Assembly: GCF_029210495.1 (NCBI RefSeq)
Contig: NZ_JARGDK010000012.1
Span: 1-64,000 of the forward strand
Reading direction: 5' to 3'
Origin: Pseudothioclava nitratireducens
GTDB lineage: Bacteria > Pseudomonadota > Alphaproteobacteria > Rhodobacterales > Rhodobacteraceae
DNA: 64,000 bases
Below the pieces are notes generated by a model, which was given only the letters and a program-made list of their open reading frames with translations, ran no database searches and was not told where the DNA came from. Both the position numbers and the translations under genes were made by a program. This document shows, piece after piece, positions 28,691 through 34,160 of the stretch. Within the stretch, counting starts at the first letter, position 1, and the number at the start of each line of letters is the position of its first letter.

Positions 28691-28774
28691 ATGTCACGCT
28701 CTGCCTTGCAGCGCATCGCGTTTTACCTGATGCTTGCTCTAACCCTTTCGGTCGCGCTGACCGGAAGCGTCTGA
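28691..28774 (+). CDS. predicted 27-residue hydrophobic peptide
   Basis: ATG at 28691 follows GGGGGA; TGA at 28772-28774. The product MSRSALQRIAFYLMLALTLS... is a short basic N-terminus followed by one hydrophobic stretch, fitting a single-pass membrane micropeptide. It ends seven bases before the XpaC-like gene. I know no homologue, and leader-peptide or chance origin remain possible. Confidence 0.42.
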   Translation: MSRSALQRIAFYLMLALTLSVALTGSV

Positions 28775-28781
28775 GGCTGCG

Positions 28782-29681
28782 ATGGCACAGAGATTTGGCG
28801 GCAAATACAGCCCGACCGGCACCGGGCCCGCAGGCGGCGGACTGGCCGGACGTGAGATCGCGCAAAAACCCCCGGCCCCGCCGCGCCACCCGCTGGAAAA
28901 CCGGCCGTTCTGGATCACCCTCACCGCCGCGCCCTTCCTGCTTGGGGCCTTTGGCGACGGGCCGTTTGCGCTCTTGCGGGCGTTGGGGGCATTCGCGCTG
29001 ATCGCGGGGGCAAGCTGGCTGATCCGCGAAGGGTTGCAGGCCGAGGCCGCCTATAACGCGCGCCGCGTGGCGCGTCGTCCAGCCTTTCCGCGCAAGATTT
29101 TCGGGGCTGTGCTCTATGGGCTTGGCATCACCATCGGCGCGCAGGCGCCCGAGATGGGCCTGATCGGGGCCATCGTCGTGGGTGTGATCGGCACCGGCCT
29201 TGCGCTGCTGGCCTTTGGCAGCGATCCGATGACAAACAAGGGCATGGAGGGGATCGACCCGTTCCAGCAAGACCGCGTGGCCCGCGTGATCGCCGAGGGC
29301 GAAAAGCACCTCGCCGCGATGCGCGATGCGATCGCCCGCACTGGGGATCGCCCGCTCGAAGCGCGGGTGGAGCTGTTCATTGCCACCGCACGCGACTTGT
29401 TCCGCACCGTCGAACAGGACCCCGGCGATCTGAGCGCCGCGCGGCGGTACATGGGCGTCTACCTTGAGGGCGCGCGCGATGCGACCGTCAAGTTCGTGGA
29501 CCTCTGGACCCAAACCCGCGACGCCAAGGCGCGCAGCGATTACGAGGCGCTTCTGGGCGATCTCGAACAGAATTTCACCGCACGCACGCGTAGCCTGATC
29601 GAAGGCGGGCGCGAGGGGCTCGAGATCGAGATCGACGTGCTACGCGAACGACTCGCCCGCGAGGGCGTGCGTCAGGATTGA
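28782..29681 (+). CDS. XpaC-like / BCIP-phosphate hydrolysis family membrane protein
   Basis: 299 residues. Residues 1-40 are Gly/Pro-rich; then a pair of hydrophobic segments (~43-62 and ~64-82), another pair (~103-119 and ~125-146), and a helical cytoplasmic domain (FQQDRVARVIAEGEKHLAAM... to the end), which matches the XpaC family (named for 5-bromo-4-chloroindolyl phosphate hydrolysis in Bacillus). XpaC is almost always next to TelA, as here, and the pair is linked to envelope stress and toxic-anion resistance. First large gene of its operon. Confidence 0.83.
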   Translation: MAQRFGGKYSPTGTGPAGGGLAGREIAQKPPAPPRHPLENRPFWITLTAAPFLLGAFGDGPFALLRALGAFALIAGASWLIREGLQAEAAYNARRVARRPAFPRKIFGAVLYGLGITIGAQAPEMGLIGAIVVGVIGTGLALLAFGSDPMTNKGMEGIDPFQQDRVARVIAEGEKHLAAMRDAIARTGDRPLEARVELFIATARDLFRTVEQDPGDLSAARRYMGVYLEGARDATVKFVDLWTQTRDAKARSDYEALLGDLEQNFTARTRSLIEGGREGLEIEIDVLRERLAREGVRQD

Positions 29682-29734
29682 ATGGTATGATCGGCACCGC
29701 CCGGCGGCCCGACAGATGCGATAAGGAGCGACGA

Positions 29735-30904
29735 ATGAGTGAGACCACCCGCGAAAAGGCCGCGCAGGCCCTGGCCGAGATTGAGAACGTGACCGCCGTG
29801 ATCCTGCCCGAGCCCGCCGCCGAAATCGTGCCGCTGACCGCCGCACCGACCGCCGTCGCCATCGAGATCCGCTCGCGGATGGATGAGCTCGACCTGAGCG
29901 ACACCGGCTCCATCGTGCGCTTCGGCGCGCGCGCGCAGAACGAGTTGCAGCAGATCAGCCAAGCCATGCTGGCCGATGTGAAGAACAAGGATGTGGGCCC
30001 TGCGGGCGACAGCCTGCGCCAGATCGTGACCACGATCCGCGGCTTCTCGGTGTCGGAACTCGATGTGCGGCGCAAGCGCTCGTGGTGGGAGAAGCTGCTG
30101 GGTCGCGCTGCGCCCTTCGCCAATTTCCTCGCGCGTTTCGAGCAAGTGCAGGGCCAGATCGACAAGGTGACGGATGATCTGTTGAGCCATGAGCACAAGC
30201 TGCTCAAGGACATCAAGTCGCTCGATATGCTCTATGACAAGACGCTCAAGTTCTATGACGAGCTGGGGCTCTACATCGCCGCGGGCGAGGAAAAACTCGC
30301 CGCGATCGACGCGACCGATATCCCTGCCAAAGAGGCGGCGGTCGAGGCGGCTGCCGAGGGCGACAAGGTGCTGCGCGCGCAGGAATTGCGCGATCTGCGG
30401 GCCGCGCGCGACGATCTGGAGCGCCGCGTCCATGACCTCAAGCTGACCCGTCAGGTGACGATGCAGTCGCTGCCTTCGATCCGGCTTGTACAGGAAAACG
30501 ACAAGTCGCTGGTCACCAAGATCAACTCGACGCTGGTCAACACCGTGCCGCTTTGGGAAACGCAACTGGCGCAGGCGGTGACTATCCAGCGCTCGCGCGA
30601 GGCGGCAGAGGCGGTGCGCGAGGCGAACGATCTGACCAATGAGCTGCTCACCGCCAACGCCAAGAATCTGCGTGAGGCCAATGCAATCGTGCGCGAGGAG
30701 ATGGAACGCGGCGTGTTCGATATCGAAGCGGTCAAGACCGCCAATGCCGAACTGATCGCCACCATCGAGGACAGCCTGCGCATCGCCGACGAGGGCAAGC
30801 GCAAGCGCGCCGACGCGGAAGCCGAGTTGATCACGCTCGAAGGCAAGTTGCGCGACACCCTTGCGGCGGCGAAATCGCCCGAAACCACGGGCGGCTCGGT
30901 CTGA
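29735..30904 (+). CDS. TelA-like toxic anion resistance protein
   Basis: 389 residues, helical throughout, TelA family. Landmarks: GSIVRFGARAQNELQQISQAML, WWEKLLGRAAPFANFLARFEQV, DKTLKFYDELGLYIAAGEEKL, and QSLPSIRLVQENDKSLVTKI. No membrane segment is visible. TelA proteins were named for tellurite resistance, though their mechanism is unclear; computational work places them with Ter-type stress proteins. ATAAGGAGCG precedes the ATG at 29735. Confidence 0.9.
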   Translation: MSETTREKAAQALAEIENVTAVILPEPAAEIVPLTAAPTAVAIEIRSRMDELDLSDTGSIVRFGARAQNELQQISQAMLADVKNKDVGPAGDSLRQIVTTIRGFSVSELDVRRKRSWWEKLLGRAAPFANFLARFEQVQGQIDKVTDDLLSHEHKLLKDIKSLDMLYDKTLKFYDELGLYIAAGEEKLAAIDATDIPAKEAAVEAAAEGDKVLRAQELRDLRAARDDLERRVHDLKLTRQVTMQSLPSIRLVQENDKSLVTKINSTLVNTVPLWETQLAQAVTIQRSREAAEAVREANDLTNELLTANAKNLREANAIVREEMERGVFDIEAVKTANAELIATIEDSLRIADEGKRKRADAEAELITLEGKLRDTLAAAKSPETTGGSV

Positions 30905-30905
30905 G

Positions 30906-31877
30906 ATGATCGGGGGCGGGGCGCGCGTCTTTCAGGTCTGCGTGATGCTGGCGGCGCTGGCCCTTGCAGGGTGCGAATTCGGCCCCGGCGGCTCTCAACA
31001 GGCCCCCGAAGCCACGCCGCGCCCGGTGCCTGCGCCGGGCGATCTTGGTGACGTGGCCAGCCTCCCCGCCTCGCCGGAATCGGAGGCCATGCGGGAGTAT
31101 TTCGCGCGGGTCGAGCGGACGCTTCAGGATCAGGGCTTGCTGCGGCAGGACGTGGCCCCGCGCGACGCGCCGTTCAACAGCCGCCAGTTGGTCGAGGATT
31201 TTGTCCGCATCGCGCTGTATGACGAATATGCGCCGCAAAACGGCACCTTCGTCGCCCGCCAGAGCGCGAGCCGTTTGCGCCGCTGGGCGAGTCCCGTGCG
31301 CATGTCGGTCGAGTTCGGCCCCTCGGTCCCGGTCGCGCAACGCAAGGCCGACCGCGCCGCGATCTCGGCCTATGCCGGGCAACTGGGGCGCGCCTCGAGC
31401 CATCCGGTGTCGGTGGTCGCGCGGGGTGGTAATTTCCACGTGCTGGTGCTCAACGAAGATGAGCGCCGCAACGCGGCCGCGCGACTGCGCGCATTGGTGC
31501 CGGGGATCGACGCGGCCTCGATCGGCGCAATCACCGGGCTGGCACCGTCGACCTTCTGCGTGGTCTTTGCCTTCTCCGAGGGCGACTCGCCCGAATATTC
31601 CCGCGCCGTGGCGGTGATCCGGGGCGAGCACCCCGACCGGCTGCGCCTCTCGTGCATTCACGAGGAACTGGCGCAGGGCATGGGGCTTGCAAATGACAGC
31701 CCCCGCGCGCGCCCGTCGATCTTTAACGACGACGAGGAATTCGCCCTGCTGACGCGCCATGACGAAATGCTTTTGCGCATCCTTTACGACCCGCGCCTGC
31801 GCCCCGGCATGACCGAGGCCGAGGCGCGCCCGATCGTTCAAACCATTGCCGCCGAGCTGATGGGCGGAGACAGCTAA
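30906..31877 (+). CDS. DUF2927 family lipoprotein
   Basis: 323 residues. Signal with lipobox LAALALAGCEF makes it a lipoprotein; the mature part carries a DUF2927 domain, with LVEDFVRIALYDEY, WASPVRMSVEFGPSV, and CIHEELAQGMGLANDS, where a His-Glu pair suggests a putative metal-binding or protease-like site. Here it starts one base after the TelA gene stop, which strongly suggests joint translation with the stress cluster. Confidence 0.83.
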   Translation: MIGGGARVFQVCVMLAALALAGCEFGPGGSQQAPEATPRPVPAPGDLGDVASLPASPESEAMREYFARVERTLQDQGLLRQDVAPRDAPFNSRQLVEDFVRIALYDEYAPQNGTFVARQSASRLRRWASPVRMSVEFGPSVPVAQRKADRAAISAYAGQLGRASSHPVSVVARGGNFHVLVLNEDERRNAAARLRALVPGIDAASIGAITGLAPSTFCVVFAFSEGDSPEYSRAVAVIRGEHPDRLRLSCIHEELAQGMGLANDSPRARPSIFNDDEEFALLTRHDEMLLRILYDPRLRPGMTEAEARPIVQTIAAELMGGDS

Positions 31878-31889
31878 GGAGGCCCCGAC

Positions 31890-33023
31890 ATGGGTATTCT
31901 CGATTTTCTGACCGGCGAATTCATCGATGTAATCCACTGGGTCGATGACAGCCGTGACACGATGGTCTGGCGCTTTGAGCGCGAGGGGCATGCGATCAAA
32001 TACGGCGCGAAGCTGACCGTGCGCGAGGGGCAGGCCGCCGTCTTCGTCCATGAGGGGCAAATCGCGGATGTGTTCGGGCCGGGGCTTTATATGCTCGAAA
32101 CCAACAACATGCCGATCCTGACCACCCTTCAGCACTGGGATCACGGCTTCCGCTCGCCCTTCAAGTCCGAGATCTATTTCATCAACACGACCCGGTTCAA
32201 TGACCTCAAATGGGGCACGAAGAACCCGGTCATCGCGCGCGACCCGGAATTCGGGCCGGTGCGGCTGCGGGCGTTTGGCACCTATTCGATGCGCGTCGCG
32301 GACCCGGCGCGGTTCATCGCGGAGATCGTGGGGACGGATGGCGAATTCACCGCCGACGAGATCAGCTTCCAGATCCGCAATGTGATCGTGCAGGAGTTCA
32401 GCCGCGTGATCGCAAGCGCGGGCATCCCGGTGCTGGACATGGCGGCGAACACGCGCGACCTCGGCACGATCATCGCCCGCGCTATCGACCCGGTGGTCGC
32501 GGCTTATGGCCTCTCGATCCCCGAATTCTATATCGAAAACATCAGCTTGCCCGAAGCGGTCGAAGCCGTTCTCGACAAGCGCACCTCAATGGGGATCATC
32601 GGCGATCTGCACGGCTATATGAACTTCAACGCCGCCGAGGGACTGGCAATGCCGGGCTCGGGGGTCGGCGCTGCGGTTGGTGCGGGGCTGGGGCTCGGGA
32701 TCGGGCAGCAGATGGTGCAGGGCCAGCTTCAGGGACCGTGGGGGCAACGCGCCGCCGCGCCGCAGGCCCTGCCCCAGACGGGCGGCGTTGCCCTGCCCCC
32801 TCCGGTCCCGACCGTCGAAAAGGTCTGGCATGTGGCCGTGAATGGTGTGGCCACCGGCCCCTATGGCCGTGGACATCTGGGCCGCATGGCCGCCGAGGGC
32901 GGGCTGACGCGCGAGACGCTCGTCTGGACGCCCGGTCAGGACGGCTGGAAGCCCGCCGACGAGATCGCGGAGCTTGCGCAACTCTTCACCATCCAACCGC
33001 CGCCCCCGCCGCCCGGAGCCTGA
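31890..33023 (+). CDS. SPFH-domain protein with C-terminal GYF_2-like domain
   Basis: 377 residues. An SPFH (stomatin/prohibitin/flotillin) domain covers residues ~25-240, with WRFEREGHAIKYGAKLTVRE, FVHEGQIADVFGPGLY and YSMRVADPARFIAEIVG. It is the subgroup related to Bacillus YdjI (virion-core/antifreeze-like). A Gly-rich hinge (~250-280) and a Pro-rich segment lead to a GYF_2-type domain with WHVAVNGVATGPYGRGHLG and WTPGQDGWKPA, which binds proline-rich peptides. GGAGG precedes ATG at 31890. Confidence 0.87.
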   Translation: MGILDFLTGEFIDVIHWVDDSRDTMVWRFEREGHAIKYGAKLTVREGQAAVFVHEGQIADVFGPGLYMLETNNMPILTTLQHWDHGFRSPFKSEIYFINTTRFNDLKWGTKNPVIARDPEFGPVRLRAFGTYSMRVADPARFIAEIVGTDGEFTADEISFQIRNVIVQEFSRVIASAGIPVLDMAANTRDLGTIIARAIDPVVAAYGLSIPEFYIENISLPEAVEAVLDKRTSMGIIGDLHGYMNFNAAEGLAMPGSGVGAAVGAGLGLGIGQQMVQGQLQGPWGQRAAAPQALPQTGGVALPPPVPTVEKVWHVAVNGVATGPYGRGHLGRMAAEGGLTRETLVWTPGQDGWKPADEIAELAQLFTIQPPPPPPGA

Positions 33024-33029
33024 TCCGCG

Positions 33030-34160
33030 ATGGCACTGGCGCCAATCGGGCTTGCGTCCGAGCATCACTACCCCTGTGAGAGCTGCGGGGCGGACCTGCG
33101 GTTCGCGCCCGGCCAGACGCGACTGGTTTGCGATCATTGCGGGCATGTGCAGGACATCCCGCAGGCGACCGGACAGGGCCGCGCGGTGCTGGTCGAATTG
33201 CCGCTCGAAGACGGGCTGCGCGCCCGTCTGCCCGAGGAGATCATCGACGAGCGTCGGACACTCTCTTGCCCGAATTGCGGCGCCTCCATCGAGTTCGAGG
33301 GTGAGCGCCACGCGACCGAATGTCCCTATTGCGCAACGCCCGTCGTCGCCGATACCGGAACCCGGCGGCTGATCAAGCCGCAAGGGGTCGTGCCCTTCGA
33401 GATCACCGAGGAGCAGGCCCGCGCGGCCTTGTCGCGCTGGCTCCGGGGGCTTTGGTTCGCGCCCTCGGGCCTGTCGCGCTATGCCCGCAAGGGGCGGCGG
33501 ATGACGGGGATTTACGCGCCGTTCTGGACCTTCGACGCGCAGAGCCGCACGGCCTATAGCGGTCAGCGGGGCGACTACTACTACGAGACCCGCTCGGTCC
33601 GCGTGAATGTAAACGGGCGCAACGAGACCCGGCGCCAGCAGGTTCGCAAGGTTCGCTGGCACGCGGTGCGGGGGCGCGTCGCACGGGCCTTCGACGATGT
33701 GCTGGTCTATGCCGCGCGCTCGCTGCCGCCCACCTATATCGACGCGCTGCGTCCTTGGGATCTTGGGGCGCTGCGGGCCTATCAGCCGGATTTCCTCGCG
33801 GGCTTCGAGGCCGAGGGCTATACGGTCGAGCTGCATGAGGGGCACCACCTCGCACGCGCTCAGATGATGCATGTGATCCAATCCGACGTGCGCCGCGATA
33901 TCGGCGGCGACGAGCAGCGGATCGGGCATCTCGATCCGGAATTCAGCGCCGAGACCTTCAAGCATGTTCTGCTGCCGGTCTGGACCGCCGCCTACCGCTA
34001 TCGGGGCCAGAGCTATCGTTTCGTGGTCAATGCACAGACCGGACAGGTGCGGGGCGACCGACCGTGGTCCGCGTGGAAAATCGGCTTTGCCGTGCTGCTG
34101 GCGGCGCTGGTGATCGGGGTTGGCATCTATCTGAACGAGACGGGCGCCTTCCAGCGATGA
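33030..34160 (+). CDS. zinc-ribbon membrane protein (YdjG-like)
   Basis: 376 residues. Two zinc ribbons at the N-terminus, CESCGADLRF with CDHCGHVQD (residues ~16-40) and CPNCGASIEF with CPYCATPVVA (~80-105), are followed by a large beta-rich domain with an aromatic stretch (GIYAPFWTFDA) and a single C-terminal membrane helix (IGFAVLLAALVIGVGIYL). Bacillus YdjG has similar zinc ribbons and acts with SPFH protein YdjI on envelope integrity. It follows the SPFH gene by six bases. Confidence 0.82.
   Translation: MALAPIGLASEHHYPCESCGADLRFAPGQTRLVCDHCGHVQDIPQATGQGRAVLVELPLEDGLRARLPEEIIDERRTLSCPNCGASIEFEGERHATECPYCATPVVADTGTRRLIKPQGVVPFEITEEQARAALSRWLRGLWFAPSGLSRYARKGRRMTGIYAPFWTFDAQSRTAYSGQRGDYYYETRSVRVNVNGRNETRRQQVRKVRWHAVRGRVARAFDDVLVYAARSLPPTYIDALRPWDLGALRAYQPDFLAGFEAEGYTVELHEGHHLARAQMMHVIQSDVRRDIGGDEQRIGHLDPEFSAETFKHVLLPVWTAAYRYRGQSYRFVVNAQTGQVRGDRPWSAWKIGFAVLLAALVIGVGIYLNETGAFQR

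Follow-up and report, generated by a model that had tools for sequence, protein, structure and literature searches.

A conserved gene cluster joining XpaC-TelA to an SPFH/zinc-ribbon pair as a candidate PspA-independent membrane-integrity complex of Rhodobacteraceae

What might a single gene cluster do when it joins two modules that lie in separate operons in Bacillus subtilis? The question is raised by a locus of Pseudothioclava nitratireducens that lies in the 64,000-nucleotide stretch of contig NZ_JARGDK010000012.1 analyzed here (positions 1 to 64,000; the window). Its six genes encode, in order, a micropeptide, XpaC, TelA, a DUF2927 lipoprotein, an SPFH protein with a GYF domain (SPFH-GYF) and a zinc-ribbon membrane protein (ZnR). 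All six open reading frames (ORFs) were recovered as the initial annotation had placed them, on the plus strand and separated by 7, 53, 1, 12, and 6 bases. The sigma-W operons listed for B. subtilis include both xpaC-yaaN and pspA-ydjGHI (PMC3498285). We favor, at a probability of about 60%, the interpretation that this is a chromosomally encoded complex for membrane integrity (envelope stress) in Rhodobacteraceae, acting independently of PspA. The cluster itself is real, conserved, and clearly delimited, and its new elements are the combination of known modules, the micropeptide family, and the predicted DUF2927 fold.

The union of the two modules, as proposed in the initial annotation, is borne out by Pfam assignments and by gene order. 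TelA is present in 194 of 196 sampled genomes of the order Rhodobacterales, one of which (G085; G and L numbers denote genomes and loci) has weak matches only, the best at 8e-12. From the TelA matches listed we picked 40 loci by hand, one per genus, the first 20 of them from the best-scoring end, and profile searches recover the order XpaC-TelA-DUF2927-SPFH-ZnR in 33 of these, one with a second XpaC. The loci without the full five-gene order are L032 and L036 (both at contig ends), L039, L045, L063, L067, and L071, and XpaC adjoins TelA in 39/40. The grouping is thus not accidental, and the genes are not scattered among related genomes. A further 80 named loci were drawn by ZnR itself, a sample biased towards ZnR; all six features including the micropeptide are present in 51, and SPFH lies before ZnR in 76, the remaining four having less than 0.9 kb of sequence preceding ZnR. 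The cluster is flanked upstream by genes for a cytidine-type deaminase (tadA-like) and a pseudouridine synthase (rluB-like), and downstream by those for a pfkB kinase and a D-Tyr-tRNA deacylase (dtd), as assigned by Pfam. These flanks are recognized upstream in 30/40 loci, downstream in 30/40, and on both sides in 23/40; the position of the cluster on the chromosome, with tadA/rluB on one side and pfkB/dtd on the other, is fairly stable.

A co-loss test was performed with ten chosen genomes: that of the window, six whose synteny is broken, two that lack TelA, and one in which TelA matches are weak only. XpaC, SPFH, and ZnR are all present in the seven genomes with a full TelA, and none of the three is matched in the genomes without one (G011, G106, and the weak-TelA G085). 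In the six broken-synteny genomes (G029, G110, G189, G124, G021, and G163) the missing parts are located elsewhere in the genome, with SPFH and ZnR still neighbors in G110, G189, and G124. G011 and G106 retain DUF2927, whereas G085 does not; in G106 it still lies between rluB and pfkB/dtd, where a congener (L060) has the whole cluster. We conclude that XpaC, TelA, SPFH, and ZnR form a single unit in retention and loss across the genomes tested, and that DUF2927 is not an obligate member but a separable passenger or adjunct of the cluster. This corrects the earlier proposal that DUF2927 provides the outer component of the set: it is dispensed with outside the family and is retained in two genomes that have lost the other four genes.

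Table 1. Genes of the XpaC-TelA-SPFH-ZnR cluster in the window
Feature	Coordinates	Strand	Basis
Micropeptide, 27 residues, single transmembrane segment	28691-28774	+	Translation and cross-validated profile
XpaC (Halogen_Hydrol, PF10112)	28782-29681	+	Pfam 7.5e-21; family domain C-terminal, residues 127-287
TelA (PF05816)	29735-30904	+	Pfam 1.3e-105; no hydrophobic segment
DUF2927 (PF11150) lipoprotein, predicted metzincin fold	30906-31877	+	Pfam 1.7e-65; LAGC lipobox in sequence
SPFH-GYF	31890-33023	+	Pfam Band_7_1 2.6e-101, C-terminal GYF_2 6e-18; proline-rich tail
ZnR, double zinc-ribbon membrane protein	33030-34160	+	Conserved Cys pairs, hydrophobic segment 351-369

Beyond the family, we scored at most eight candidates per genome in a class sample of 240 genomes and at most five in a phylum sample, and misses are possible in both. 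TelA is found in 19 of the 237 non-Rhodobacteraceae genomes of the class sample, 17 of them over the family cut-off; three further matches belong to Rhodobacteraceae. Full-length SPFH-GYF and full-length ZnR occur in the same 10/240 class genomes, as a neighboring pair in each, and TelA adjoins the pair in eight of the ten. SPFH-GYF and ZnR thus form a constant pair. Further weak matches in this sample cover only a zinc ribbon in the case of ZnR (four cases) or mainly the GYF end in that of SPFH (17 genomes), and in one class genome (G207) the SPFH part lacks GYF. DUF2927 is missing from an XpaC-TelA-SPFH-ZnR cluster at five loci (L074, L075, L077, L079, and L090), which represent four other families of the class. 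At the other 32 of the 37 non-family loci examined, TelA was matched, in some cases together with XpaC, or the profiles matched nothing (L085, L102, and L103). In the phylum sample TelA is present in 75/398 genomes, and the four-gene core was found at none of the 18 TelA places taken from it. One of the 32 loci just mentioned, in another class of the phylum (L091:2278-9314), has a remote set of XpaC, TelA, and an SPFH-GYF_2 protein with a Band_7_1 match below the cut-off, after which come one gene unmatched by Pfam and three genes for lytic transglycosylases.

As noted in the initial annotation, the cluster lacks PspA, and neither it nor the genome has a match to PF04012 (PspA/IM30). PF04012 is matched over the cut-off in 57 of the 196 genomes of the order, and among the 49 of these in which a TelA place is listed, compared by eye with the other eight left out, the nearest PspA lies 20.6 kb from TelA (G073). 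The SPFH and ZnR genes resemble pspA-ydjGHI in that an SPFH gene adjoins a gene for a zinc-ribbon membrane protein, and they differ in that the cluster has neither PspA nor an identified YdjH counterpart, and in that it adds XpaC, TelA, and the micropeptide. SPFH-GYF has no hydrophobic segment by hydropathy and, with its Band_7_1 match, is of the same PF13421 type to which we take YdjI to belong. YdjI itself is described as soluble, with YdjG and YdjH required for its membrane binding and for recruitment of PspA (PMC8581546), and a zinc ribbon is present in YdjG (PMC9239133). SPFH-GYF departs from YdjI in having GYF_2, where YdjI is described as carrying a zinc-finger motif (PMC8581546).

In SPFH-GYF the GYF domain is followed by a proline run in which P370, P371, P372, and P374 are invariant in 13 sequences, which makes contacts between the GYF domain of one subunit and the prolines of another a plausible principle of assembly. 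ZnR matches zinc-ribbon models of Pfam below the cut-off only (DZR 1.2e-4), and a 19-sequence alignment defines two Cys4 ribbons, C16, C19, C34, C37 and C80, C83, C98, C101, in which the first two cysteines are nearly invariant and the rest invariant. ZnR, modeled at a predicted local distance difference test score (pLDDT) of 80.4, also has a long beta domain and a single C-terminal membrane helix. Searches of solved structures by sequence gave only weak zinc-ribbon-like matches for ZnR (best E 0.013), and for TelA, XpaC, and SPFH nothing usable in the PDB apart from hits to the SPFH GYF domain. A related family of ORFs is inserted between SPFH and ZnR in 12 loci (13 ORFs; including L042, L043, L040, and L047); these are apparently membrane proteins, and of two tested against Pfam one matches cytochrome b561 and one has no match.

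The other module conforms to XpaC-TelA pairs as defined by adjacent PF10112 and PF05816 genes, and shares this arrangement with XpaC-YaaN of B. subtilis, lmo1966-lmo1967 of Listeria, and llmg_1115-telA1 of Lactococcus lactis. Unlike these pairs, for which the available parts of the sources name no SPFH or zinc-ribbon gene alongside (nagA is next in the L. lactis table), the pair in the window is joined to SPFH-ZnR and preceded by the micropeptide. XpaC has hydrophobic segments in its N-terminal part by hydropathy. XpaC-TelA homologues are reported to rise under bacteriocin stress in Listeria (PMC12791056) and to have raised values in transcriptome data tabulated for L. lactis that overproduces membrane protein (PMC3139573). 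TelA and XpaC are widespread, and their mechanism is described as unknown (PMC12791056, PMC13109727, PMC6955997). Our literature search, which left subscription papers mostly uncovered, found no paper that joins TelA and SPFH with XpaC, a zinc ribbon, or toxic anion resistance, and none on DUF2927. A second XpaC-like ORF lies near the cluster in L057, L067, L110, and L138, and those of L057 and L067 share 29-30% identity with the XpaC of the window.

Is the short ORF in front of XpaC a gene? Candidates within 45 bases of XpaC were taken under a selection rule favoring hydrophobic ends, and a profile trained on half of the loci was tested on the other half, using 39 loci and the window (L071, which has no local XpaC, was left out). 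The candidate ranked first in all 40 tested loci among 216-442 stop-to-stop frames of 20-400 residues, and its E was below 0.01 in 38 of them, all but L039 and L041, while no other frame in these loci fell below E 0.01. The micropeptide has a hydrophobic segment at 5-23, and the family consensus is about LQKxAYxxLxxLxxGVxxGxxGG. Judged by this profile behavior the micropeptide, which the initial annotation had included in the set, is a genuine gene of a new conserved family. It also goes with XpaC: in G163, where XpaC is on another contig, the micropeptide precedes it there (E 5.5e-6), and the profile has no match around the retained DUF2927 of G106 and G011. In 17/40 loci the stop of the micropeptide and the projected start of XpaC overlap, which suggests translational coupling of the two. 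No match to the profile was found in the non-Rhodobacteraceae clusters, some of which have short hydrophobic ORFs before XpaC.

Upstream of the micropeptide, a promoter-like TTCCCCCTAG is present in L037, L045, L046, L048, L049, L052, L056, L064, and L067, in most cases followed by a C(C/T)TA(A/G)xT block. Across the 595 kb of L032-L071, counting both strands, TTCCCCCTAG occurs nine times, always 57-109 bases 5' of the micropeptide start; the sequence is absent from the window, and among the named loci L179 has one occurrence on the opposite strand. A promoter common to all loci was sought and none was found, the conserved element being confined to this subset, where it is possibly a site for a regulator or sigma factor.

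DUF2927, separable from the unit, gains a predicted structure. A model built from 24 sequences (pLDDT 85.3) matches matrix metalloproteases in Foldseek with a best E of 3.4e-3 at probability 1.00 (none at or below 0.001), and a second structural comparison with 2y6d gives Z 11.1 and a root-mean-square deviation of 2.6 over 145 aligned residues. The sequence search of the PDB yielded only unrelated proteins (best E 0.079), so the match comes from the predicted fold, which is of the matrix-metalloprotease type of metzincin. Metzincins have the zinc motif HExxHxxGxxH/D. At the corresponding place, with the register set by spacing rather than by superposed coordinates, DUF2927 has EExxQxxGxxND, in which the catalytic-type Glu and the Gly are in register but E253, Q257, and N263 occupy the three zinc-histidine positions. 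E253, E254, Q257, G260, N263, and D264 are invariant in 24/24 sequences and H252 is present in 22/24. DUF2927 is likely to be a pseudo-enzyme or to provide a site for another metal. A longer second DUF2927, a distant paralogue (open frames of 466-509 residues, L224-L230), has EExxQxxGxxND in 7/7 sequences, preceded by H. At L222:6956-9855 a natural loss of the cluster has left DUF2927 in place, with an Hsp20 gene adjoining.

If the cluster does encode a membrane-integrity complex, ZnR would anchor oligomers of SPFH-GYF at the inner face of the inner membrane, much as YdjG/YdjH do for YdjI, and the GYF domain may hold the subunits together by binding their proline-rich tails. XpaC and the micropeptide would anchor TelA, and the resulting TelA-XpaC arm would be recruited to the SPFH platform in the place that PspA has in Bacillus. 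The assembly could then stabilize a membrane damaged or depolarized by antimicrobial peptides, toxic oxyanions, or comparable agents. DUF2927 would face the periplasm as a lipoprotein whose metzincin site is altered, sharing the locus and perhaps the regulation while having a function of its own.

Several observations weigh against this interpretation. The connection of the cluster to envelope stress in Rhodobacteraceae, as already suggested by the initial annotation, is supported by homology to stress-linked operons and by homology only. A control search with PF10112 gave a match in L. lactis and none in B. subtilis, and the relationship of the XpaC of the window to that of B. subtilis is not confirmed by it. 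ZnR, with two Cys4 ribbons and one membrane segment, is a putative counterpart of YdjG, and a fold search of solved structures with ZnR gave nothing above Z 3.5 and no convincing match for the beta domain. TelA was considered as a PspA homologue and rejected, with an hhalign probability below 1% against ten PspA sequences; there being no similarity between the profiles, a PspA-like role of TelA is conjecture. The parts of the cluster can also occur apart: G424 has SPFH-ZnR without any TelA match, and in G342 TelA is on a different contig from SPFH-ZnR and a second ZnR (2e-112) is present with no SPFH match on its contig. At nine Paracoccus loci TelA-DUF2927-SPFH-ZnR is present but XpaC and the micropeptide are missing from the site, and three more have SPFH-ZnR only.

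The same evidence bears on other explanations. The name of TelA invites the view that the cluster is a dedicated resistance operon for toxic oxyanions such as tellurite, and R. sphaeroides telA is indeed listed among chromosomal tellurite determinants (review PMC6955997), while lowered Tel proteins accompany tellurite sensitivity in Lactococcus (PMC13109727). A telA-type mutant of Listeria is cited as 2-fold more sensitive to tellurite, but the same mutant is 4-fold more sensitive to nisin (PMC12791056), so that tellurite is not the specific substrate there. In addition, Pfam matches no reductase, transporter, or thiol-enzyme family among the six genes, SPFH and a zinc-ribbon protein as partners suggest a role at the membrane, and near-universality in the order fits general stress better; we regard a dedicated tellurite function as quite improbable. 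The absence of a Ter kinase and of vWA reported in the initial annotation stands, with no Pfam match to these or to TerB/C/D/Z in the six genes or in four tested flanking genes. A system for anti-phage or inter-bacterial conflict was an idea of that first reading of the sequence, and membrane surveillance proteins and small membrane peptides do occur in some defence systems. Defence genes are patchy, however, whereas TelA is near-universal in the order and its locus fairly stable with recognizable flanks, and PADLOC models gave no credible match (E 0.016-0.039, the best being 0.016). The proposal of an accessory defence system was therefore dropped, and we give it hardly any credence.

A constitutive module for membrane organization or peptidoglycan coordination, akin to flotillin-like housekeeping and not responsive to stress, would also account for near-universal conservation in the order. 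In B. subtilis, loss of YdjG/YdjH mislocalizes cell-wall synthesis and deletion of YdjI lowers fluidity (PMC8581546), and the lytic transglycosylase genes near the remote set of L091 agree with such a role. Nevertheless, the homologous operons described in the sources are either members of stress regulons or stress-responsive (PMC12791056, PMC3498285, PMC3139573), and loss of the whole unit in three genomes indicates that it is dispensable; we consider the housekeeping explanation unlikely. Returning to the membrane-integrity complex, a more specific version can be proposed tentatively, and we hold it to be doubtful in its full extent: the cluster may be a PspA-independent counterpart of the Psp system, in which TelA is recruited to an SPFH-GYF/ZnR platform via XpaC and an obligate micropeptide of 25-30 residues, and which would serve as the standard membrane repair of Rhodobacteraceae, alongside a conserved neighboring pseudo-metzincin lipoprotein that may bind a different metal at its site.

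DUF2927 gains from this analysis a predicted fold and a precise hypothesis about its active site. A natural loss strain beside an intact congener, together with the micropeptide, makes functional comparison cheap. The fixed union of TelA-XpaC with SPFH/ZnR, backed by joint loss, places these proteins in a concrete context within a genetically tractable family.

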